A model generated the notes under the pieces. It was not told where the DNA came from and ran no database searches. It saw only the letters and a program-made list of their open reading frames with translations. From a virus, in IMG/VR virus record IMGVR_UViG_3300027734_002740, positions 1 to 24,087 of that record: a stretch of DNA of 24,087 nucleotides; one strand, 5' to 3'. Within the stretch, counting starts at the first letter, position 1. Each line of letters starts with the position of its first letter. Shown here piece by piece: positions 5,489 through 24,087 of the stretch. The position numbers were made by a program, and so were the translations under genes.

Positions 5489-6064
5489 TTAATATTGAAC
5501 AGTCCTAGCGGTTCCTTCTGTCTCATTTATATTTCCACGATAAGAAGTACCTTCAATATTAAACCACAAAGGCGATGAGTATCTATCTGAACTATTTACT
5601 AACACTTCATGCAAATAATGGTTGTTGCTAGGGAATAAAATAAAACTATTAGCCTTTGGCTTAACTGTTAAATTATGCCATGGAAAATTTATCTCTCCTC
5701 CATCGTAGTTATCATTAATATAATAAATAACTGCAAAATCTCCTGCCGTGTCTACATGTTTGTTCATTGAATAATCTTTTTCAAATTTAACTAAATGAAC
5801 TTCTGATTTTTCAAAAACACGAAGTTTTACATTATATTTATCTATACATTTTTGCCAAGCAATTCGAATAGCCTTGTCTAACAGGTCAGAGATCTCCGAA
5901 GATAATCCTTTTTCAGAATTAAAAAACTTTACACCCCAAGGCTGTTTTTGCCACCCATCAACATTAACTACATAGTCAAGTAATTTTTCATGTTCCTCTT
6001 TAGACAATACATCTTCTACAGTTTGTATATTATCTACAGAGTTTTCTGATGTAATTTTTGTCAT
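5489..6064 (-). CDS. Prolyl 4-hydroxylase-like 2OG-Fe(II) oxygenase (copy 1)
   Basis: 191 residues. The double-stranded beta-helix signature is intact: His103-Val-Asp105 (HVDT) and His152 (YLHEV) as iron ligands, and Arg161 in RYSSPLWF as the 2-oxoglutarate anchor. YYINDNYDGGEINFP between them is typical of the P4Hc/2OG-FeII_Oxy_3 group, which hydroxylates prolyl or other side chains in proteins. The N-terminal VEDVLSKEEHEKLLDYV element is shared with the two upstream paralogues. Its start overlaps the stop of the next copy (ATGA). Catalytic residues are all present; substrate unknown. Confidence 0.85.
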   Translation of the reverse strand: MTKITSENSVDNIQTVEDVLSKEEHEKLLDYVVNVDGWQKQPWGVKFFNSEKGLSSEISDLLDKAIRIAWQKCIDKYNVKLRVFEKSEVHLVKFEKDYSMNKHVDTAGDFAVIYYINDNYDGGEINFPWHNLTVKPKANSFILFPSNNHYLHEVLVNSSDRYSSPLWFNIEGTSYRGNINETEGTARTVQY

Positions 6065-6669
6065 TCTTTATTGTACCATTCTGCTTTTTTAGTAAAAGTT
6101 GAACCAGCAAACTGAAACCACATTGATGAACTATATCGATTTCCACTGGAAATTTTTTTAACCTCATGTAAATAGTTTTCATTACCAGGGAAAAATACTA
6201 AACTGTTTGGTTTTGGTTTAATATTTATATTAAATTCTGGGAAACACAATTCGCCACCAGTAAAATCATCATTAAGATAATATATTGAAGCAATATGATT
6301 TGATTCGGCAGATTCGGTATCTACATGTGGCATCAAAACAAGATTTTCTTCAAATTTGAGAAGTGAAATATTCTTTTTTTCAAAATAATTAATATCTACT
6401 CCATAAGCCTTTGTAGCATTTTCGTAAACAATTGTAAATACTCTTTGTAACATATTAAAAATATCAACTGGTAACTGATCCATCGCAACAGAGTAGGCAT
6501 CCCAGGGCTCAAGAATCCACAACTTACGGTTCCTTACGTAATCAAGCAAGATTGCGTGTTCTTCTTCAGATAGTACGTTCTCCATAACCTTTATGTTTTC
6601 TGGAGAGTTTCCTATTTTTTCAACATTCTTTAAATAAATTTCATCTTTTTCAGAAAGGTTTTCAATCAT
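6061..6669 (-). CDS. Prolyl 4-hydroxylase-like 2OG-Fe(II) oxygenase (copy 2)
   Basis: 202 residues. Iron ligands His115-Val-Asp117 and His168 (NYLHEV), 2OG anchor Arg178 (NRYSSSMWF), with YYLNDDFTGGELCFP between them. The N-terminus (DEIYLKNVEKIGNSPENIKV) closely parallels that of the copy at 7066-7713 (DEIYLNNVNKLGSFAKNVYV), showing a recent duplication. It overlaps its neighbours on both sides by 4 nt (ATGA), so it is tightly co-translated with the membrane protein upstream and copy 1 downstream. Cytosolic; substrate unknown. Confidence 0.85.
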   Translation of the reverse strand: MIENLSEKDEIYLKNVEKIGNSPENIKVMENVLSEEEHAILLDYVRNRKLWILEPWDAYSVAMDQLPVDIFNMLQRVFTIVYENATKAYGVDINYFEKKNISLLKFEENLVLMPHVDTESAESNHIASIYYLNDDFTGGELCFPEFNINIKPKPNSLVFFPGNENYLHEVKKISSGNRYSSSMWFQFAGSTFTKKAEWYNKE

Positions 6670-7073
6670 GTATCTATTTTACCATACTCTTCTGGGAGAA
6701 GTTTCTTTAATTCTTCGTAGGCCCCCATAATTTTTTTCATGGAGTAGTAATTTGGTGCCATGGATCCAAGGTCTCCATACTCTTTAAAGTAGTTAATCTC
6801 AGGCTCAAGATCAGTAATAAACTTATTTAATGTCTCCTGGACTTCTTCAATATATTGATAGGCCCAGTCTCGTGAATCTGAAACAAATTTTAAAAAATCT
6901 TCGTTAGACTTATCTTTTTCTGTTTTATTTGTGTTCATGCTAAATTGCGAAAGCAACAAATTTTCTATAGTTTTAGCAATAAGTTTTGTGTTGGCTCTTT
7001 TCTGTAAAACATATAGGGATAAAAAAAACAATGTCAAGAAAAACAGAATACATATAAGGATTAACTTAACCAT
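6666..7073 (-). CDS. Membrane-anchored helical protein
   Basis: 135 residues with an N-terminal hydrophobic segment (about residues 4-23, LILICILFFLTLFFLSLYVL) and basic residues after it, followed by a hydrophilic, predicted mostly helical domain. The core SDSRDWAYQYIEEVQETLNKF resembles small uncharacterised proteins I recall from other phage genomes. It sits between two 2OG oxygenase paralogues and overlaps both, so it probably interrupted or accompanied the duplication. The soluble part would be cytoplasmic if the anchor is N-out. No function is assigned. Confidence 0.6.
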   Translation of the reverse strand: MVKLILICILFFLTLFFLSLYVLQKRANTKLIAKTIENLLLSQFSMNTNKTEKDKSNEDFLKFVSDSRDWAYQYIEEVQETLNKFITDLEPEINYFKEYGDLGSMAPNYYSMKKIMGAYEELKKLLPEEYGKIDT

Positions 7074-7713
7074 AGTTTTTTTCCGCCCACTCCCTAATAC
7101 CTGTTGGTCCTAAAAATTTAGAGCCTGAAAAAGCAAACCTCATACCAAAAGTATATCTAAAACCTTTTGAAACTTCAAGGACTCCGTGAAGATAGTTTTC
7201 GTTACCAGGAAACATAATCAAACTATTCGATTTAGGTTTAATTTTTAAATTATAATCTGGAAACACAAGTTCCCCTCCATCATATTTATCATTAATATAG
7301 TACATGCACACAATATGTTGATGTTTTTGAGAGTCTGTATCAACATGGGGATTCATTACGTCCCCAATACTCCACTTTGTTAAAAGATATTCTCCTATAA
7401 AATTATTGTCTACTTCTATATCATAATAATCTATACAGTTTAATCTTCCAGTTTGAAATATTTTTTCCAAAAGTTTCATAATATCTTTTGGAATTGAGTC
7501 TTTAGTGGTTCTTTCTGTACCCCATGGCTCTTTAATCCAAGAAACTTGATTATCATTGTTTACAAAATTAGATAATGTCTTGTGCTCCTCATCAGATAAA
7601 AAATTATCTATAACATATACGTTTTTTGCAAAACTTCCTAATTTATTAACATTATTTAAATAAATTTCATCTTTTTCTAAATCAATGTGCTTTCTAAATT
7701 TTTCTAGGTCCAT
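7066..7713 (-). CDS. Prolyl 4-hydroxylase-like 2OG-Fe(II) oxygenase (copy 3)
   Basis: 215 residues. Iron ligands His123-Val-Asp125 and His176 (NYLHGV), 2OG anchor Arg186 (FRYTFGMRF), with YYINDKYDGGELVFP between. It is the longest of the three clustered copies, with a short N-terminal extension and a C-terminal WAEKNYG tail. The ATG lies in a TAATG overlap with the 78-aa gene upstream, and the 3' end overlaps the membrane-protein gene by 8 nt. All catalytic residues are present. Confidence 0.85.
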   Translation of the reverse strand: MDLEKFRKHIDLEKDEIYLNNVNKLGSFAKNVYVIDNFLSDEEHKTLSNFVNNDNQVSWIKEPWGTERTTKDSIPKDIMKLLEKIFQTGRLNCIDYYDIEVDNNFIGEYLLTKWSIGDVMNPHVDTDSQKHQHIVCMYYINDKYDGGELVFPDYNLKIKPKSNSLIMFPGNENYLHGVLEVSKGFRYTFGMRFAFSGSKFLGPTGIREWAEKNYG

Positions 7714-9291: not shown

Positions 9292-9624
9292 TCAGTTTTT
9301 ATTAGAAAGGGCTTTGACTATCTCTTCCATAACTATTCTCTCCTCTTTGGGCAAAGACTTTATATCCATAGCACTGAAAGATTTTGGTCCTAGTTTTACT
9401 AATGGATCTTTATCTGTTACATTCATATCAATAAAACCTTTTTCCCAAAGTTTTAAAGTCACTTCTGAAAAATATAAAGATAGGTCTTCGCTAAGTTTAG
9501 AGTCTAACTTTTTAAGCCTATCTGTAGGCTTATAAAGGGCTTCTCCAGTTTCCAAGTCACTACCAACAAACTTAAGAGCACCAAGATCTATAAGACTTTG
9601 TATTTTATCATCTTCAAAGGTCAT
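9292..9624 (-). CDS. 110-aa hypothetical protein
   Basis: Acidic, Leu-rich soluble protein, mostly helical by pattern. It contains IQSLIDLGALKFVGSDLETG, EALYKPTDRLKKLD, then SLYFSEVTLKLWEKGFIDMN. The helix-strand alternation resembles a small winged-helix or terminase-associated domain, but this is not strong enough for a call. It starts 11 nt inside the end of the 2OG oxygenase gene upstream. No family is recognised. Confidence 0.58.
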   Translation of the reverse strand: MTFEDDKIQSLIDLGALKFVGSDLETGEALYKPTDRLKKLDSKLSEDLSLYFSEVTLKLWEKGFIDMNVTDKDPLVKLGPKSFSAMDIKSLPKEERIVMEEIVKALSNKN

Positions 9625-10186
9625 AGGACACTTCTTTTTCTTTTATATTTGTTGCCCAAATAGGCATCGCTATTCTTAAACCAGATAAAACTTTTGTTAT
9701 TTCGTGTAATTCTTTAGAGTCAAAAATAATAAGGCTTAACTTTTTTGGTTTAATTATAAAATCTTTATCTGGAAAATTTAAATATCCTCCATCAAAATCT
9801 TCATTTAAATAAATAACACCGCTTCTAAATAAATGCTCTGAATTTTTATGGTTATCTATATGCGGATCAAGGGCACTATCTGGCCCTAACATAGTCATCC
9901 ACAGTTCTGATAAGTATATGTTTTCATCATCCTTAAAAAAAAGATTAGTTTCTAACAAAAACTTATCAGAGTATTTTTTTAATAAATGTAAAATTTCTAG
10001 ATGATTTGAAAATTTACTCTGTTCTGGTATGCGTGATTCATACCTTATTTTATTATTAACTATATGTGTTAGCGAGATAGAAAATTTTGTTTTGTCTGAA
10101 CAGTTATTTTTTATATAATTTACAAGTATGTCAGCATCTTCTAAAGTTATAAAATCTTCTATTACCTTAATTTTAAAATCTACCAT
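9614..10186 (-). CDS. Prolyl 4-hydroxylase-like 2OG-Fe(II) oxygenase
   Basis: 190 residues. Iron ligands His109-Ile-Asp111 (PHIDNH) and His161 (KELHEI), 2OG anchor Arg171 (GLRIAMPIW), with IYLNEDFDGGYLNFP between. It is more divergent from the three clustered copies: the N-terminus is different and the last strand reads PIWATN rather than WF. It is coupled by TAATG to the nuclease gene upstream. All catalytic residues are present. Confidence 0.83.
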   Translation of the reverse strand: MVDFKIKVIEDFITLEDADILVNYIKNNCSDKTKFSISLTHIVNNKIRYESRIPEQSKFSNHLEILHLLKKYSDKFLLETNLFFKDDENIYLSELWMTMLGPDSALDPHIDNHKNSEHLFRSGVIYLNEDFDGGYLNFPDKDFIIKPKKLSLIIFDSKELHEITKVLSGLRIAMPIWATNIKEKEVSYDL

Positions 10187-10838: not shown

Positions 10839-11600
10839 TTAGATACCCATCTCTTTACGTTTTTGCGTAGCGCTAATAGCATGAATGTCTGCCCCCAAAT
10901 CTACTTGTTCAATTTTATATCCTACGTCACGACCATATACAATGTTGGTAATATTAGGCAATCTTAATACCAATGCTCCATCCATAAATTCATCCTTGGC
11001 AATATATTCTTTTACCTGATCAAACTTAAGTGGATCTTTCTCGCTTGTATTGTATGTATTGCGGACACCAAGAAGTACCTGATCTGTTCTCTTTCCTGCC
11101 TCTTTATAAAGGGCATGGTGGCCTTCGTGCCAAGGCTGGTACCTACCCAGCATAAGTGTTGTGGGTGCTGACCAATCGTGTAAATTAAAATACTTAATTA
11201 TTACTGTTGCTTTTTGTTCGGCGTCTAATCTATGGTCTTCAAATGTTGCATCAAACTCAGTTGGTCGCTCAAACATTTTATTGGTGTCTTCAAATCTACC
11301 TTCAACAATAGTATCCATAAAAATAAGAATATCTGGCTTACCAAAAGCGGTACGAGTCAAACCAGTAGGACATACAAAATCTACGATTACTGGAGCAACA
11401 CCTTGCTTAGCAATTAGTCTTGCCATTTCTCCCATACGACGAGCCTGCTCAAGTCTATCTTCTGGTGCAAAGCCTAGATCTGAATTGACTGTTGCACGAA
11501 CTTCATCTGCATTAAGATGAATAGCGTTGATTCGTTCTTTGAGTGCCTTGGCCAGTTCTGTTTTTCCAGATCCTGGAAGGCCTATAATCTGTATAATCAT
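10839..11600 (-). CDS. APS kinase-like / nucleotidyltransferase fusion protein
   Basis: 253 residues, two domains. Residues about 1-140 are a P-loop kinase (GLPGSGKT at 7-14; ADEVR and LARLIAKQG-like elements) of the adenylylsulfate-kinase type. Residues about 146-253 are a compact HIGH-superfamily nucleotidyltransferase (LGRYQPWHEGHHALY with HEGH at 158-161; ISATQKRKEMGI at the C-terminus, equivalent to ISxTxxR). The combination could make PAPS from ATP and sulfate, but the second domain is as small as NMN or pantetheine-phosphate adenylyltransferases, so an NAD-salvage kinase/adenylyltransferase is also possible. The ATG has AAGGAG 7 nt upstream and overlaps the preceding stop (ATGA). Confidence 0.72.
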   Translation of the reverse strand: MIIQIIGLPGSGKTELAKALKERINAIHLNADEVRATVNSDLGFAPEDRLEQARRMGEMARLIAKQGVAPVIVDFVCPTGLTRTAFGKPDILIFMDTIVEGRFEDTNKMFERPTEFDATFEDHRLDAEQKATVIIKYFNLHDWSAPTTLMLGRYQPWHEGHHALYKEAGKRTDQVLLGVRNTYNTSEKDPLKFDQVKEYIAKDEFMDGALVLRLPNITNIVYGRDVGYKIEQVDLGADIHAISATQKRKEMGI

Positions 11601-12166
11601 TTTTCTCCTTTAATAAACTTGTTAGGTAGAATATCAAGCATCAAATGTATGCGCTCAATATCTCCGTTGTTTTCTACGCTATGAATAAGACTATTATTTA
11701 TTTCCCAACAGTCTCCAACTTTCATGTGCTTTTTTTCTTTGTTGACAAAGAAAAAAACATCTTCATTTGTTGTTATTGCAAGGTGATGACGCCTTACGGC
11801 TCCCAAGTAGTCCATATCGTCCACATGTTCTTGAACCTTTTTATGTGCAGGAAGTTTAATAAATAAACATTTTCCAATCTTGCCGTTGTGAATTGACTCA
11901 AGACTCTTGACAATAGGAGAAACAAGTTCAATCATAGACAACTGGCTATTATTTATTTTTAAATTATATCTATCTCCAACGGACCAAGTATTTGAATGAT
12001 CATAAATAAATATAGAATTGGTTTCTTTGTGTACTTGATAAATTGTTTGTCTGTCTTTATTTGCAAACCACTCATCAGAATATGTTGAAAGTAGGTTTGC
12101 TATTTTTGATACATCAAAATTGCCTTGAAATTTATAATTAAATTCCTCATTTATTTTGCTAATCAT
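11597..12166 (-). CDS. Aspartyl/asparaginyl beta-hydroxylase-like 2OG oxygenase
   Basis: 189 residues. The layout LPAHKKVQEHVDDMDYLGAV, RRHHLAITTNEDVFFFVNKE, GDCWEINNSLIHSVENNGD, ERIHLMLDI is that of PF05118. Candidate ligands are His114 and Asp116, His162, and Arg172 for 2OG. Animal members hydroxylate Asp/Asn in EGF domains, and bacterial ones act on peptides or lipids. This is a different subclass from the P4H-like copies. It begins 2-3 nt after the DUF7455 gene and overlaps the kinase fusion by 4 nt. Confidence 0.78.
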   Translation of the reverse strand: MISKINEEFNYKFQGNFDVSKIANLLSTYSDEWFANKDRQTIYQVHKETNSIFIYDHSNTWSVGDRYNLKINNSQLSMIELVSPIVKSLESIHNGKIGKCLFIKLPAHKKVQEHVDDMDYLGAVRRHHLAITTNEDVFFFVNKEKKHMKVGDCWEINNSLIHSVENNGDIERIHLMLDILPNKFIKGEK

Positions 12167-16516: not shown

Positions 16517-17080
16517 TTAGTTAATGTCTGGATCAACAATTATATACCCTTTTGGATGTTCTGTCTGGGTTGTATGCATATAGAGCAGGGTTGATCTAGA
16601 CCCGCTTTCTATAGTAGATATTCCATGTCTCCATAAATATCCATCGCTTAGAAAAAATATACCATCATATTTTTTTGGTTTATAAGTAAAGTCAAATCCT
16701 GGAAAATATAAATCTCCCCCGACAAAGTTATCATCTAAATAAATTACCGTACTGTATTCTATAAACTCTTCTGGAGACTGATCATCAATATGAGCATCTG
16801 CATGGCTTCCTGCTGTCCAAACTGATCCAAAAGATTTAAATGTATTTATTTTTTTTGTTTCTTTTGGGTTAAGTCTTTGATGCACATCATTAGATAGTAA
16901 AGAATATTTTTTTTGAATATTTAAAACTATCTTATTATAAGGATACGCTGTTCCACCATACCTAGTTTTATAGTATTCTGGGTATGGATTTACCTCTGAT
17001 GGATTATTAATTTCATCTACAAGAGTCTGTGCATCTTTAGGAGTAATAAAATTTTTAATTACTACAGGTTTTGTTATCAT
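16517..17080 (-). CDS. Prolyl 4-hydroxylase-like 2OG-Fe(II) oxygenase coupled to a GT60-type gene
   Basis: 187 residues. Iron ligands His97-Ile-Asp99 (AHIDDQ) and His152 (WRHGI), 2OG anchor Arg162 (SRSTLLYMHT), with VIYLDDNFVGGDLYFP and YKPKKYDGIFFLSD between. It is divergent from the 5489-7713 copies. Its start overlaps by 4 nt (ATGA) the end of a GlcNAc-transferase-like gene, so the two proteins are made together. By analogy with the Skp1 pathway it may hydroxylate a Pro that the transferase then glycosylates; this is inference. Confidence 0.82.
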   Translation of the reverse strand: MITKPVVIKNFITPKDAQTLVDEINNPSEVNPYPEYYKTRYGGTAYPYNKIVLNIQKKYSLLSNDVHQRLNPKETKKINTFKSFGSVWTAGSHADAHIDDQSPEEFIEYSTVIYLDDNFVGGDLYFPGFDFTYKPKKYDGIFFLSDGYLWRHGISTIESGSRSTLLYMHTTQTEHPKGYIIVDPDIN

Positions 17081-17913
17081 GAGTATATCCTGTTCGCCAC
17101 TTCATGAAATCTTTGCTCAGAAAGTTTGTCTAGATTTGAAAGAAACTCATACTCTACATCATTTATATTATATGGAAAATACTCTAAACTGGTAAAATCA
17201 TATTCTATTAATTTCATAAGTTCTTTAACGCCAGGAATAGACTCATTTTTTGATTTAAAACAATCTATAATTTTTGAATAGTTATGATATAAAGAAAATG
17301 GAATAAAATCATTTTTTAATATACTAGGCTCATTATCAACTACAAAATTAGTTGGAATTGCTAAAACAGATATACCCTCATGTGCTGCAAACAATGAAAG
17401 GTATTCCTCAACCCCATAGTATTTAAATATTGATATGTCTGGCAAAGTTCTAAATAGATCAAAGTTCATAAAGAAAAAATCTTTAGATACCCAATTTACC
17501 TTTGTTTCTTTTGTTATCTCTATCTTTTTATACTCTGGATAAAATTTATAATTATCTTTATTAAAAATAACATTATGGCTACCTGATAAAATTGTTTTTG
17601 ATTGATCTTGATATTTTAATAACTCAATGTCCCAATCTTTTTGAAACATTTTTGCACCATCAACATACATAAAAAAATCAAAGTTTTTTCTCTTTTTAAA
17701 AAAGTTCATATACTTAAACCTAGACGTTAAGTCACCCCAAAAAATATGATTGTAATTAACATCAACAAATTTTTCTGGTCTAGAAATATTTCTTTGATCA
17801 AAAACAACAACATCTATTTTATTTTGACCACTTTGATTTCTCATAAGTTGATCAACGGCATCTGGCAACAACTTACTTTTATAACCGTAAAAATAAACCA
17901 ATATGTTTTTCAT
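17077..17913 (-). CDS. GlcNAc-transferase-like glycosyltransferase (GT60/PF11397-type)
   Basis: 278 residues from the ATG at 17913, which begins one base after the upstream stop; a frame to 17961 would overlap that gene by 47 nt. The GT-A metal-site region FDFFMYVDGAKMFQKDWDIE resembles the D-S-H-x-x-F-x-x-x-WD motif of PF11397. Later FFFMNFDLFRTLP and YYGVEEYLSLFAAHEGISVL match the faFasF and GEE...R.(y/h)-x-G segments. In Dictyostelium Skp1, the GT60 enzyme adds GlcNAc to hydroxyproline. Donor and acceptor here are unproven. Cytosolic, no signal or membrane segment. Confidence 0.65.
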   Translation of the reverse strand: MKNILVYFYGYKSKLLPDAVDQLMRNQSGQNKIDVVVFDQRNISRPEKFVDVNYNHIFWGDLTSRFKYMNFFKKRKNFDFFMYVDGAKMFQKDWDIELLKYQDQSKTILSGSHNVIFNKDNYKFYPEYKKIEITKETKVNWVSKDFFFMNFDLFRTLPDISIFKYYGVEEYLSLFAAHEGISVLAIPTNFVVDNEPSILKNDFIPFSLYHNYSKIIDCFKSKNESIPGVKELMKLIEYDFTSLEYFPYNINDVEYEFLSNLDKLSEQRFHEVANRIYS

Positions 17914-17914
17914 T

Positions 17915-18580
17915 TTATAGCAATGGTATCCAGTGCTGCTGGATTGTATGATCGCCACCAAGAAGTAACGAACTTAGAGGCTGAATGTCGTAAGCAACTG
18001 TAATTCTAGATCCAGGCCAATCCCAATCGCCTTGTGCGTGTGGGTGTCCCATTTCCGAAACAATCATTCTGTTATCAATATTTTTGTTTTCAACCTCTCT
18101 TTTTGGATCACCAAAAAGTCTATAATATGTACTTGATGGCTCAGCCTTTACGCAATAGTATCCGTGGAAATTAGGAGCCCCTGGTGCGCCATGGTCATGC
18201 CAGTTTAGTTTTCCATTACCTGCTTCATTAATATTAAACCATCCCTGAACATAGTATTTTTGTTTGTCAAAATCTATTCCATAATAAGAGCAAGCCTCTT
18301 TGACTAGTTTTGCTAATTCAGAATATAACTTGTGCAAAGATGGATGATAAAGTTGAAAGACATTATATTCTCTCCACTTTACAGTTGATAAACTTCCAGA
18401 CTCTAACCAAATTCCTTCATCATTTTCCATTGTGCTAACGCCACGCAGTTGCGCTTCTGTAATTAACTTATACTTGGCTTCTAAAAACCTAGCAAGTTCA
18501 TCTAAATTATTGTCTAGGTGCTTTTCAAAAAACTTGTGCTCTTTGTTACTTTGTAACATAGTTCCACTTGCGTTTAACAT
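17915..18580 (-). CDS. 2OG-Fe(II) oxygenase, 2OG-FeII_Oxy_5-like
   Basis: 221 residues. The core NWHDHGAPGAPNFHGYYCVK, then EPSSTYYRLFGDP, then GHPHAQGDWDWPGSRITVAY resembles the TIGR02466/Oxy_5 family of marine phages and bacteria: His128-x-His130 first ligands, a second His (His179 or His181) before the final strand, and Arg192 (SRITVAYDI) as the 2OG anchor. It is a different subclass from the P4H-like copies because HxH replaces HxD. TAATG coupled to the gene upstream and followed closely by the glycosyltransferase. Substrate unknown. Confidence 0.7.
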   Translation of the reverse strand: MLNASGTMLQSNKEHKFFEKHLDNNLDELARFLEAKYKLITEAQLRGVSTMENDEGIWLESGSLSTVKWREYNVFQLYHPSLHKLYSELAKLVKEACSYYGIDFDKQKYYVQGWFNINEAGNGKLNWHDHGAPGAPNFHGYYCVKAEPSSTYYRLFGDPKREVENKNIDNRMIVSEMGHPHAQGDWDWPGSRITVAYDIQPLSSLLLGGDHTIQQHWIPLL

Positions 18581-19350
18581 TATTTATCTCCCTTATTGTT
18601 TATTTTTTCTTTACTGTACTTTGCATATTCTTTTTTTCTCCATGCAAATTTTCTATAGTGTGCTGTTATATCAGACCTTCTATTTTCTGCTATTGAATGA
18701 TGTTTTTCTTGTGCATCAGAGGAATCATCAACTATTAAATTCCAAGGCTCTCTTTTAATTGGGATCATTTGACATATAGGAGTTCCCATTGGTATAACCC
18801 CTTCAAAATTTCTTTTTATAAAAAATGGTACAAATGGAGGTAGTCCCCAGATATCAGAATCAACTATAGCAGATGGAGTCCAAAATGGCAAATCTGGCCT
18901 ATTTATTGGCATTGTCATAAACAAAGAATAGTCTTTTGGTGTTTCATAATACCATTGCATCTTAACACCAAAATGTATAGGGTGAACGTCTTTTGGAATT
19001 GCCATGTCAACATGCTCTCTTGTATCCATCATCATAAAATTCTTTTTCCAAGATAGGGATGGCTTTCCAGAGACATCAAGTGTTACCTCTAAATCATCTT
19101 CTAGTAAATACATATAGCCAAGTGACATAGCATCTTGAAATGGCAAACAAAGTTTTGTAGAAACATTAGAGCCATCTGCACCTCTATCATTTACAGGGCA
19201 TAAAGATTTTAAATCATTAGTTGTAACATGCTTTGCCAGATCTCTATACCACTGTGGTATTGTTTTATAGGATGGCTCTGGAGATAAAAAATCAGCAACA
19301 TCTTGATCATGATGTGGAATAAATATTAACTCTAAATCATTTTTGTCCAT
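18580..19350 (-). CDS. Uncharacterised protein, DUF6065-like
   Basis: 256 residues. The N-terminal PEPSYKTIPQWYRDLAKHVT, then LCLPFQDAMSLGYMYLLEDD and the later DSDIWGLPPFVPFFIKRNFE, GTPICQMIPIKREPW resemble the DUF6065 family of proteins found in marine phages and often placed among 2OG oxygenases and glycosyltransferases. The fold looks cupin/jelly-roll-like. Candidate metal ligands are not clear. It overlaps the hypothetical gene upstream by 14 nt and the 2OG oxygenase downstream by one base (TAATG), so it belongs to the modification cassette. Confidence 0.55.
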   Translation of the reverse strand: MDKNDLELIFIPHHDQDVADFLSPEPSYKTIPQWYRDLAKHVTTNDLKSLCPVNDRGADGSNVSTKLCLPFQDAMSLGYMYLLEDDLEVTLDVSGKPSLSWKKNFMMMDTREHVDMAIPKDVHPIHFGVKMQWYYETPKDYSLFMTMPINRPDLPFWTPSAIVDSDIWGLPPFVPFFIKRNFEGVIPMGTPICQMIPIKREPWNLIVDDSSDAQEKHHSIAENRRSDITAHYRKFAWRKKEYAKYSKEKINNKGDK

Positions 19351-20005
19351 AATAATCCTTTAGTTGTGATATTTCTTTGTCATCTAAAATAACAGACATA
19401 TCGTACATTGCAGTATTCTTACTAATAATACCATACTTTTCTTTTAAATAATATGCCCCAGTATTTTTAATTTTAAAATCAACAAAATCTGAAAAAGCAT
19501 AATAGGCAGAATCTTCTAAGTAGTTTGCAGTAAAGGTTTGTTCTTTTATGTAAAAGGGAGCGTATTCATCTTCTACTCCATTTATTTTAAAACTAACATT
19601 TTTATTTATAAACCAAGGAATATAAAATTTATATGTTGGGTCAAAACATTCTTTGTTTTCTAAATTATTTAAAGATGGATAAAACTGTCTTTGATGGCAT
19701 TTGTCTAAAGCATAAAGCGTACCATCATCAAATTCTTCAACCCAAATCTCTGCATGAGTTTTTTGTCTAAAAGTAACTATATTATTAGTTATATTTGTAA
19801 TTTTAGGTTTTGGATAAAAATTAATAACATAATTATTTACTGGCTTTAGAATACTTTTAATTTTTAAATTTTCTTTTGAGTCATATCTAGACCATTTATT
19901 TGGAAGTCTTGAATGCATTGATATTTCTGGTAAAGATAAATTTGCAGAATTTAGCCACCATTCAGACCCTGAAATATTATATTTTTTATTTATTATATTT
20001 CGCAT
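19337..20005 (-). CDS. 222-aa hypothetical protein, first gene of the modification cassette
   Basis: Asn/Lys/Tyr-rich protein (MRNIINKKYNISGSEWWLNS...) with many short beta-type strands. YKFYIPWFINKNVSFKING and YAPFYIKEQTF resemble segments of the DUF6065-like neighbour, so the two may be distant relatives. AGGA lies 5 nt before the ATG, and a TGTATAAT box is about 30 nt upstream. No catalytic residues stand out and no family is recognised. Confidence 0.55.
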   Translation of the reverse strand: MRNIINKKYNISGSEWWLNSANLSLPEISMHSRLPNKWSRYDSKENLKIKSILKPVNNYVINFYPKPKITNITNNIVTFRQKTHAEIWVEEFDDGTLYALDKCHQRQFYPSLNNLENKECFDPTYKFYIPWFINKNVSFKINGVEDEYAPFYIKEQTFTANYLEDSAYYAFSDFVDFKIKNTGAYYLKEKYGIISKNTAMYDMSVILDDKEISQLKDYYGQK

Positions 20006-21294: not shown

Positions 21295-21323
21295 AGTATA
21301 CTCCTAAAGACTGACAATGTCAA
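21295..21323 (-). promoter_or_regulatory. Promoter giving a leaderless start for the 67-aa gene
   Basis: On the minus strand TTGACA (21318-21323), 17-bp spacer, TATACT (21295-21300), then six bases and the ATG at 21288. The promoter lies at the 3' end of the Ntn-hydrolase gene. With 358-386 this is the clearest case of a full consensus promoter ending at a start codon. Confidence 0.78.
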
Positions 21324-21828
21324 CTGGACCCATGCAAGATGGGTTAAATTTAATTGCTGCATTTACTGCTTGCATAACTCTATTTCTTGCATTTTTTTGC
21401 TTGTCTGTTGCATATAAAACCCCATAAGCATACTCTGCTCCAGACCCCATAGCAAGGTATGGAAGTGTGTACTTAGATAAAGACATATCAGCAGAACTAT
21501 GTTCATAGATGTTTCCACGAATTGCAATAATTAAACCAAGGTCGCCATCTTTGGATGTGTCAACCCAAAACTCATTATAGAATTCTTTTAGTTCTTTAAT
21601 AAACTTTGTTTGCATGTGCTTGTCAGTATCTTTTAGTATTGGGGCAGATGGTTTAAAGTTGTAGCGGATTCTTTCTCCGTCCATAGATCCTGCATATCCA
21701 ATAAGATAGGGACCTATCTTCCAAACTTTTGGTGCATCAAGTGCTAGGATTGTTCCATCATCTGAGGCCCCTCGATCACCTGCCATATAAATCTTGTCTT
21801 CATGTTTTACAACGGCAATACAGGTCAC
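21304..21828 (-). CDS. Proteasome beta/HslV-like Ntn hydrolase
   Basis: 174 residues, GTG start (21828) with AAAGGG upstream. After removal of the initiator Met, Thr is residue 1; Asp17 (AGDRG) and Lys33 (APKVWKIG) complete the exact Thr1/Asp17/Lys33 catalytic set of proteasome beta subunits and HslV. YLAMGSGAEYAYGVL gives the conserved GSG oxyanion region (GSG at 127-129 in the mature numbering) and the C-terminal GPVDIV carries the conserved Asp. The length matches HslV. It would form self-compartmentalised rings degrading peptides or proteins; no ATPase partner is visible nearby. Promoter and palindrome precede it. Confidence 0.78.
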   Translation of the reverse strand: MTCIAVVKHEDKIYMAGDRGASDDGTILALDAPKVWKIGPYLIGYAGSMDGERIRYNFKPSAPILKDTDKHMQTKFIKELKEFYNEFWVDTSKDGDLGLIIAIRGNIYEHSSADMSLSKYTLPYLAMGSGAEYAYGVLYATDKQKNARNRVMQAVNAAIKFNPSCMGPVDIVSL

Positions 21829-22192: not shown

Positions 22193-22365
22193 TATTCATC
22201 ATCTCTATTTCTAATCGGATATGTGATTGCCCATGCAATTAATGTACATATAATTGCATACCCCACTATCGTCTTTGCTGAACCATCAAGGACTACCCAG
22301 GCAATAAACATACCTAGAAGTGTCCAAAGTTGATCTATCATATCTTGCATTATTTTCTTTATCAT
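22192..22365 (-). CDS. 57-aa two-span membrane protein
   Basis: MIKKIMQDMIDQLWTLLGMF, with two hydrophobic segments (about residues 14-27 and 33-50) separated by DGSAKT and ending in a charged NRDDE. The ATG overlaps the tail-protein stop (ATGA) and the TAA overlaps the next ATG (TAATG). The pair of adjacent small membrane proteins suggests a holin/antiholin arrangement. No family is recognised. Confidence 0.62.
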   Translation of the reverse strand: MIKKIMQDMIDQLWTLLGMFIAWVVLDGSAKTIVGYAIICTLIAWAITYPIRNRDDE

Positions 22366-24087
22366 GGTCTTCTTCTCCTTATTCCCTTGGAATCGCCAGA
22401 GGCTCCTCCGCCACCTGATCCACCAGAATTACCTCCGCCTGAGCGAGATCCCCCTGTTGATCCTCCGATGGAGTTTGCTGCTGCACCTACTGCATTTAAT
22501 GCAGCACCTGAAGCAATAACTGTTGCAACAACCATCTTGGTTGCTTCTTCTCTTTCACCTGGAGTCATATCTGCTCCAATACTTCCAAGTGCTGCTAATG
22601 CTGCTCCTGGATCATTAAATAATTCTGCTGCAAATGCTGCTGGATCTGATATCAATTCTACTTGTACAGCAACTTCTGCTGTAATAACAACTGCTTCACC
22701 ATTTTCAGATGTACGAACATCTACTGGTGTATCTGGTGGTAAGTCTGCTAATTTAATTCCAGCCTCGGCTACCTGTTCTTTAGTTAGGTTTTCACCTTCT
22801 GGAACTGATTGAATTAGTGCATCAGCAACAATTTCTTTTTCTGCCTGAGATAATTTGCCGTCTGAACTTGCCAATGCAACAATTGCTGCAACATCTTCTT
22901 TTGACACTTCACCATCTGATGCAAGTGCATCTAATACAGACTGTTGATCTGCTACTGAAACTTTGCCATCTGATGCTAATGCATTAATTAATTGATTAGT
23001 TTCTTTTGCATCAATTTCTCCATCTGCTGCCATAACATCTGCAATATCTGCCACTTCTGTTGAATCTAGTTTGCCATCTGCTAAGGCATCATCAACAGTA
23101 TTGTTTACCGCTTCTTCTGTACCTTGATCTAATGCTGCTTGTTCTGCTTCTACTGCTGCTTGCTCAGCATCTGCTTGTGCCTGTGCATCTGCTTCTGCTT
23201 GTGCCTCTGCCTCTGCCTGAGCAGCCTCTGCATCTGCTTGGGCTTGTGCATCCTGTTGGGCTTGTGCTTCAGCAGCCTCTTGTGCTGCTTGAGCGTCTGC
23301 TTGTGCCTGTGCATCTAACGCTGCTTGTTCTTCTGCTGCAGCCTGTGCATTAGAAGCATCTATTGCTGCTTGAGCGTCTGCTTGTGCTTGAGCCTCTGCT
23401 GCAGCCTGGGCTGCTTGGGCTTCTGCTGCTGCCTGTGATGCAGCCTCCGCTGCTGCTTGTGCTGCGATGGCAGCCTCCTTTGCTGCTTCTGCTGCTGCTG
23501 CGTTTGCAGCATCTTGCACTGATGTATCTGGTGCAGGTTCAGGTGCAGGAGCGGGTGGTGGAGGTGGTGTTGGAATTGCACTAATTACTGTTTGTGCCTC
23601 TGAAATTATTGCAGGTGCAGTAGTTACTTTTTCTACTGCTGTAGAAACAATTGCAAGATCTGCTACTTTTGCAGTTAATGTTGTGTTTGCTGTTGCTAAT
23701 GCAGTCACAGTATTTTGTGAAACTGTTGCAATAGGAGCAATTACTGTATTTGTATTTGCTGTATTTGTTGCAACAACTGTTGTAATTGCTGAGTTTAATG
23801 TAGCAATTTGTGCATTAGCCGTATCAATTGCTGTTTGAATTGCTGCTGTTGAAGGATCTGGCGTAGGTGTAAATGGTGCACCTTGACTAATAGTTCCATT
23901 AAATCCAGATCCAGAATTTGTATCAGTAATAGGAGTAATTGTTCCATTAGTGCTTGATCTAGTATTAAAACGAGCACCATTTGGAATAGGACCAGTAACA
24001 CTGACATCTGCTACCCAGGCACCATCTGCTGGGTTTACATCAGCATTAAATCTAATTTGTGTCATTTGAGTATCGGCAGTTACTTGT
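22362..24087 (-). CDS. Tail-type structural protein with coiled coil and DG repeats (partial)
   Basis: At least 575 residues; the frame is open to the right edge (QVTADTQ before the first Met, no ribosome binding site), so the N-terminus is missing. In order from that Met: a beta-rich region (about 1-70), a Thr/Ala helical region, a Pro-rich hinge (about 165-182), about 130 residues of Ala/Gln/Glu heptad-like repeats (long coiled coil), five 18-residue DGxxxxxE/D repeats (22836-23078), a mixed alpha/beta domain, and a Gly/Ser-rich end with a basic IRRRRP tail. The architecture fits a tail fibre, tape-like or baseplate protein. The exact role is unknown. Confidence 0.6.
   Translation of the reverse strand, partial: QVTADTQMTQIRFNADVNPADGAWVADVSVTGPIPNGARFNTRSSTNGTITPITDTNSGSGFNGTISQGAPFTPTPDPSTAAIQTAIDTANAQIATLNSAITTVVATNTANTNTVIAPIATVSQNTVTALATANTTLTAKVADLAIVSTAVEKVTTAPAIISEAQTVISAIPTPPPPPAPAPEPAPDTSVQDAANAAAAEAAKEAAIAAQAAAEAASQAAAEAQAAQAAAEAQAQADAQAAIDASNAQAAAEEQAALDAQAQADAQAAQEAAEAQAQQDAQAQADAEAAQAEAEAQAEADAQAQADAEQAAVEAEQAALDQGTEEAVNNTVDDALADGKLDSTEVADIADVMAADGEIDAKETNQLINALASDGKVSVADQQSVLDALASDGEVSKEDVAAIVALASSDGKLSQAEKEIVADALIQSVPEGENLTKEQVAEAGIKLADLPPDTPVDVRTSENGEAVVITAEVAVQVELISDPAAFAAELFNDPGAALAALGSIGADMTPGEREEATKMVVATVIASGAALNAVGAAANSIGGSTGGSRSGGGNSGGSGGGGASGDSKGIRRRRP
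22836..23078 (-). repeat. Five 54-bp (18-residue) DG-x-(I/L/V)-x-x-x-(E/D) repeats
   Basis: Consecutive units begin DGKLDSTE, DGEIDAKE, DGKVSVAD, DGEVSKED and DGKLSQAE, exactly 18 residues apart, each followed by a hydrophobic helix. The DG-x-hydrophobic-x-x-x-E pattern resembles EF-hand or dockerin-type calcium loops or TerB-like helices. Repeats at DNA level are degenerate, so the array is old rather than newly expanded. Confidence 0.7.

Follow-up and report, generated by a model that had tools for sequence, protein, structure and literature searches.

The question raised by this locus is whether a phage can encode its own means of placing a sugar on hydroxylated proline. The window, that is, the whole stretch of DNA analyzed here, is the 24-kb virus record IMGVR_UViG_3300027734_002740 (24,087 nucleotides), and the two genes concerned lie on its minus strand. 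One encodes a prolyl 4-hydroxylase (P4H)-like 2-oxoglutarate (2OG)-Fe(II) oxygenase of 187 amino acids (P0001; 16517..17080), with the residues H97xD99...H152...R162, and the other encodes a divergent glycosyltransferase of the GT60 clan, of 278 amino acids and without a DxH motif (P0002; 17077..17913). The transferase stop codon and the hydroxylase start codon share the sequence ATGA at 17077-17080 on the same strand, confirming the 4-nt overlap given in a preliminary description of this DNA. We propose, with a probability of slightly under one half (about 0.48), that the pair constitutes a phage-encoded two-step protein modification, consisting of proline hydroxylation and subsequent sugar transfer to the hydroxyproline (Hyp).

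The preliminary description had recognized a P4H-like 2OG oxygenase in P0001 from H97-x-D99, H152 and R162, and residue conservation, profile searches and structure prediction bore this out. These residues, which correspond to the HxD...H iron triad and a basic 2OG-binding residue, were invariant in the relatives (n=21), and PF13640 matched 8 of these 21 (best 1.3e-6), P0001 itself giving no Pfam match. When the PDB was searched with the hydroxylase profile, prolyl 3- and 4-hydroxylases were recovered at 1.3e-6 to 6e-4, the best match being P3H1 (prolyl 3-hydroxylase 1; 1.3e-6), with a bacterial P4H at 5e-4. An AlphaFold2 model (mean confidence, pLDDT, 87) had as its top PDB structural matches the PBCV-1 viral collagen P4H, the P4Hs of B. 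anthracis and P. putida, P3H1, PHD2 and C-P4H-II. All of the 50 structural matches listed were prolyl hydroxylases save two uncharacterised 2OG oxygenases, and neither TET nor AlkB was among them. The P4H-type fold class is thus well supported by the model; because many PF13640 proteins are uncharacterised, we hold the substrate less firmly, and infer that it is peptidyl proline. PHROG labels such as 'DNA endonuclease' for this protein were rejected as misnaming, since paralogs in the window with clear 2OG-oxygenase Pfam matches bear those same names. The window also encodes four more PF13640 2OG oxygenases (5489-6064, 6061-6669, 7066-7713 and 9614-10186) and a protein of the Asp/Arg beta-hydroxylase family (11597-12166), and several such oxygenases are found per related phage.

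These results bear on a quite different proposal, namely that the two enzymes carry out DNA hypermodification of the TET/JBP type, in which bases would be oxidized and then glycosylated or carbamoylated. A carbamoyltransferase gene does lie nearby, and sub-threshold, weak Tet_JBP matches were seen in 6 of 21 hydroxylases (best 0.012), but none of 8 related records gave a Tet_JBP match above the curated cut-off, and the structural neighbours of the two proteins are prolyl hydroxylases and polypeptide transferases, respectively. Having found no support for DNA modification in this test, we regard it as very improbable.

The transferase required more sensitive methods. Single-sequence searches of Pfam, PHROGs and the PDB gave no match, so that alignments were needed; searching the PDB with a profile built from the aligned transferases yielded a chance match only, which was discarded. 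PF11397 was the sole Pfam glycosyltransferase family matched, in 4 of the 23 transferase members (best 5e-4). The structural model (pLDDT 82) had its best PDB matches among the polypeptide GalNAc-transferases (ppGalNAc-Ts) of family GT27, with GalNAc-T2 at E 5e-10, and LH3 was also among the fold matches. GT60 is related to the GT27 polypeptide GalNAc-transferases (PMC8724618). A related 119-kb phage (G001) was found to carry the cassette to which the pair belongs together with a canonical GT60 gene (5.6e-26), and this gene led us to 80 bacterial GT60 loci. A hidden Markov model (HMM) of the bacterial GT60 proteins recovered nearly all cassette transferases and, when run over all open reading frames (ORFs) of three relatives (G001-G003) and the window, matched only canonical GT60 and cassette transferases. 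Alignment of the transferase with bacterial GT60 by hhalign gave a probability of 96% and an E value of 3.7e-9 over 183 columns; in this alignment YVDGAKMFQKDWD lies against QIDSHMRFEPGWD, and the GEE block of GT60 against YYGVEEYLSLFAAHEG. In a specificity control with 36 viral (phage) families, GT60 alone matched the transferase (70.7%, the next family reaching 2.6%). The small locus that holds the canonical GT60 gene of G001 also contains a cytochrome P450 (PF00067, 1.9e-51; L086:20-961).

The same alignments revealed the principal difficulty. Residues W94-D95, the WD that follows the DxH position, are invariant in the transferase; residue 169, the acidic residue of the GEE type, is E or D in 23/23 members; and residue 85 is D in 19, N in 2 and S in 2 (n=23). 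Residue 87, however, is A, E or Q in 23/23 and never H, so that the DxH (QIDSH) metal motif is gone, whereas DSH is invariant in two canonical GT60 alignments (A3 and A7). The likeness to PF11397/GT60 seen earlier in the VDGAKMF..KDWD and VEEYLSLFAAHEG segments, both of which are present, was thus upheld by profile kinship and by the GT27-like fold, and it stops short at the motif that defines the family. For this reason we do not file the protein as a GT60 member; on sequence comparison it appears to be a divergent GT60-clan protein, with a predicted GT-A fold related to that of GT27. It would have to be catalytically active without the usual metal motif.

That the transferase does something is argued by purifying selection. 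In IMG/VR the hydroxylase was found at 38 loci and the transferase at 40. All 40 contigs that encode the transferase (40/40) also carry the hydroxylase gene downstream of it and in the same orientation, and the spacing in 39 of these is between -4 and +33 nt (-4, -1, or +8 to +33); the single gap of 639 nt is due to another oxygenase of the same superfamily inserted between the two genes. The coupling described earlier is therefore a strict adjacency, and the 4-nt overlap is one of several spacings among the relatives. Median dN/dS values of 0.16 for the transferase (21 pairs of relatives) and 0.10 for the hydroxylase demonstrate purifying selection on both genes. The two have also diverged separately: in L005, L006 and L008 the hydroxylase is a divergent homologue, 46-47% identical versus 68% for the transferase and 81-99% for most neighbours, and in L029 and L030 the transferase is 22-27% identical versus 66-67% for the hydroxylase, indicating that both slots are retained even where one of the two genes diverges or is exchanged for another. 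The pairing is not due to chance. Outside IMG/VR, the transferase gave no match by tblastn against 50,697 phage records and none in a search of GTDB genomes.

The same two enzyme types are also paired elsewhere, which is independent support for the association. In three of the 80 bacterial GT60 loci, P4H and GT60 domains share one polypeptide: an 875-amino-acid protein of Kordiimonas sediminis with the order P4H-GT60-TTL, TTL being tubulin-tyrosine-ligase-like (L166:5293-7920; PF13640 2.5e-14, PF11397 1.6e-65); a 1184-amino-acid protein of an uncultured gammaproteobacterium with the order HPAT-GT60-P4H (L145:297-3851; PF23452 2.9e-11, PF11397 9e-40, PF13640 1.3e-13); and a GT60-P4H fusion, likewise of an uncultured gammaproteobacterium (L136), which forms a non-independent pair with L145. 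HPAT is a hydroxyproline O-arabinosyltransferase domain (PF23452), and the L145 protein is a likely bacterial Hyp glycosylation enzyme. In two further loci a P4H gene adjoins GT60, at 7 nt (L143) and 149 nt (L138). A degenerate P4H-like ORF adjoins the GT60 ORF in two SAR86 loci (L171 and L178), which were counted apart because HxD is missing and no PF13640 match was found in those genomes. From the background density of PF13640 (65 matches in ~197 Mb, from 40 of the GT60-bearing bacterial genomes), about 0.3 of the 80 loci would be expected to have such a neighbour, versus 5 seen. Canonical GT60 (PF11397) occurs in at least 584 IMG/VR contigs, many of them of a ~425-amino-acid type without a P4H neighbour. 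Eighty viral GT60 loci (L216-L295) were examined, and in three (L222-L224) a P4H gene touches canonical GT60, at -12 to +18 nt; these pairs were confirmed with Pfam (for L224, PF13640 8e-18 and PF11397 1.6e-42). In L224 a PASTA-domain protein that contains long repeats of the types (TP)n and PTPAPTATPAP is encoded two genes upstream of the hydroxylase, and the gene upstream of the pair in L222 encodes a DPTPDPTPDPDP repeat.

In the mechanism that we propose, the P4H-like enzyme would first hydroxylate prolines in Pro-rich protein segments, and the GT60-clan enzyme would then glycosylate the new hydroxyl with a nucleotide sugar as donor (UDP-GlcNAc, to judge by the family). The likeliest targets would be proteins of the phage itself, of the tail or for secretion, that contain PTP/PEP/TP or collagen-like repeats; they would be modified in the cytoplasm, ahead of assembly or export, and the purpose might be to decorate or harden them. 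A protein acceptor, a Hyp linkage, the identity of the sugar and the modified protein itself are parts that we infer. The earlier suggestion of phage Hyp glycosylation is partly supported and gains credibility from data that the preliminary description lacked: it stands as to the folds, the coupling and the pairs elsewhere, but the HexNAc and the Hyp acceptor were not supported as stated and belong to the proposed mechanism.

As a substrate, the preliminary description had named a Pro-rich stretch in the protein at 22362-24087. This stretch, PTPPPPPAPAPEPAPDT (23523..23573, minus strand), lies in an Ala-rich protein whose N terminus is cut by the contig end, and it is a candidate, although one of several. 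Upstream of the cassette in G001-G004 are proteins with Pro tracts such as PTPEPTPEPSPEP, the one in G002 having a PA14 domain; the large relatives G001, G002, G003 and G005 encode collagen-like proteins (PF01391), and large relatives also encode FTPYSFTP or PTPVAP repeat proteins. The context favours Pro-rich phage proteins as the substrate, without choosing among them. Proteins of long YSFTPYSFTP repeats (G002:89607-91715 and G003:46229-47497) occupy the site of the relatives' Pro-rich repeat proteins.

Thr-Pro is abundant in the Pro-repeat proteins, and enzymes that glycosylate Thr or Ser occur within both GT60 and GT27 (PMC6939170, PMC8724618), T. cruzi GT60 among them. The transferase might accordingly act in a mucin-like manner, adding sugar to Thr/Ser in TP/SP-rich repeats while the hydroxylase acts in parallel on prolines of the same protein, with no Hyp-sugar link; the absence of a P4H neighbour for most viral GT60 genes also fits this explanation. 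It leaves unexplained, however, both the hydroxylase-transferase coupling in 40/40 contigs and the bacterial P4H-GT60 fusions (once with HPAT), and we consider it unlikely.

No evident signal peptide is present in either enzyme, and both are therefore expected to be cytoplasmic. The pair might modify a host protein during infection, e.g. a translation factor, and so redirect the cell; the title of one matched B. anthracis P4H structure entry describes an interaction with EF-Tu and its modification. The genomic context suggests no host target, though, and the phages possess Pro-rich and collagen-like proteins of their own, which makes a host target improbable.

Several observations weigh against Hyp glycosylation by the pair. 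Besides the loss of the metal motif, a P4H neighbour was found in only 5-7 of the 80 bacterial GT60 loci and is lacking in most of the 80 viral ones, so that GT60 alone is no sign of Hyp. Related phages bear several more P4H-like oxygenases that are distant from any GT60. Pro-rich proteins are common in phages, and the cassette also holds three proteins without an assigned role.

These three proteins precede the pair on the minus strand, in the order 19337-20005 (222 amino acids), 18580-19350 (256 amino acids) and 17915-18580 (221 amino acids), with the transferase and the hydroxylase at the end of the five-gene cassette. All three are conserved and were found in every contig that reaches far enough. 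The 17915-18580 protein appears by eye to be a second 2OG-oxygenase-like protein (WHDHG...HPHA...GxRIT), and Pfam and PDB searches gave no assignment for it. The 18580-19350 protein is DUF6065-like (phrog_7084, 2e-32), with PF19541 (DUF6065) matches in 5/14 (best 6e-4), and a PDB search gave no assignment; haloarchaeal tailed viruses of the HF1/HF2 group encode a related hypothetical protein near their baseplate genes. Elsewhere in the window are an HslV/proteasome-like peptidase near the cassette, kept in relatives (21304-21828; phrog_1040, 5e-21), and a protein that carries an APS-kinase-like domain at its N terminus and a cytidylyltransferase-like region at its C terminus (10839-11600; phrog_10255, 6e-62).

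An SGNH hydrolase and a NodU/TobZ-type carbamoyltransferase adjoin the cassette in the window, and in the Xanthomonas jumbo phage XacN1 (AP018399.1, L119:7998-11715) a GT60 gene is followed directly by a carbamoyltransferase gene. These neighbours raise the alternative that an oxygenase-transferase-carbamoyltransferase cluster remodels a non-protein glycan, a cell-surface polymer or a small molecule. We doubt this, since the two neighbours are absent or located elsewhere in several relatives while the five-gene core is constant, and both folds of the pair are nearest to protein-modifying enzymes.

A WhiB gene in the window record and in 7/7 related records examined points to an actinobacterial host, and the carriers of the pair are probably viruses of aquatic actinobacteria. 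It is quite possible, although we advance it with reserve, that actinobacterial phages of a widespread clade perform Hyp O-glycosylation of their own, by way of a metal-motif-free GT60 offshoot, on Pro-rich or collagen-like proteins that are secreted or form part of the virion. Plants, algae and protists are known to have Hyp-linked glycans. If Hyp glycosylation by the pair is true, the phage version and the bacterial P4H-GT60(-HPAT) fusions would extend this modification, as an overlooked one, to prokaryotes and their viruses, would raise the question of prokaryotic roots for the protist Skp1 pathway, and would make it possible to test directly by what means phages decorate Pro-rich adhesins or harden them. 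Our literature search, the coverage of which was incomplete so that novelty is unproven, found no paper joining GT60, prolyl hydroxylase and bacteria, and no phage report.

Among the systems with which the cassette pair can be compared, the bacterial fusions L166, L145 and L136 likewise unite a P4H and a GT60 in a single chain; they differ in that both parts are canonical and are accompanied by TTL, HPAT or other domains, and the cassette genes are only remotely similar to them. The phage pairs L222-L224 are likewise adjacent genes in environmental phages, but they keep DSH, have the order hydroxylase then transferase, do not lie in the five-gene cassette and, in L222 and L224, have a Pro-repeat protein upstream. 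The lysyl hydroxylase LH3 joins a hydroxylase and a transferase for collagen glycosylation, though on hydroxylysine and with a different oxygenase class, and the same is true of the mimivirus protein L230, a hydroxylase/glycosyltransferase for collagen glycosylation that acts by way of hydroxylysine, not Hyp. The GT27 ppGalNAc-Ts provide the nearest solved fold to the cassette transferase, at ~10-12% identity; their acceptors are Thr/Ser, and they use UDP-GalNAc and Mn2+, whereas the cassette transferase is without a lectin domain. PMC8724618 cites an enzyme from a plant-pathogenic protist (Pythium) with the dual function of P4H and GlcNAc-transferase. In the Skp1 pathway of Dictyostelium and Toxoplasma the corresponding pair is PhyA, a P4H, and Gnt1, of GT60 (PMC6939170). 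The phage pair resembles PhyA-Gnt1 in matching a P4H-type 2OG oxygenase with a GT60-clan transferase, both soluble and presumably cytoplasmic, and differs in consisting of separate, coupled genes within a five-gene cassette, in the absence of Skp1 and in the loss of DxH. As judged from sequence, the two enzymes appear to be distantly related to those that decorate Hyp on Skp1, and this analogy suggests that they work in outline like PhyA and Gnt1, presumably in the same order.
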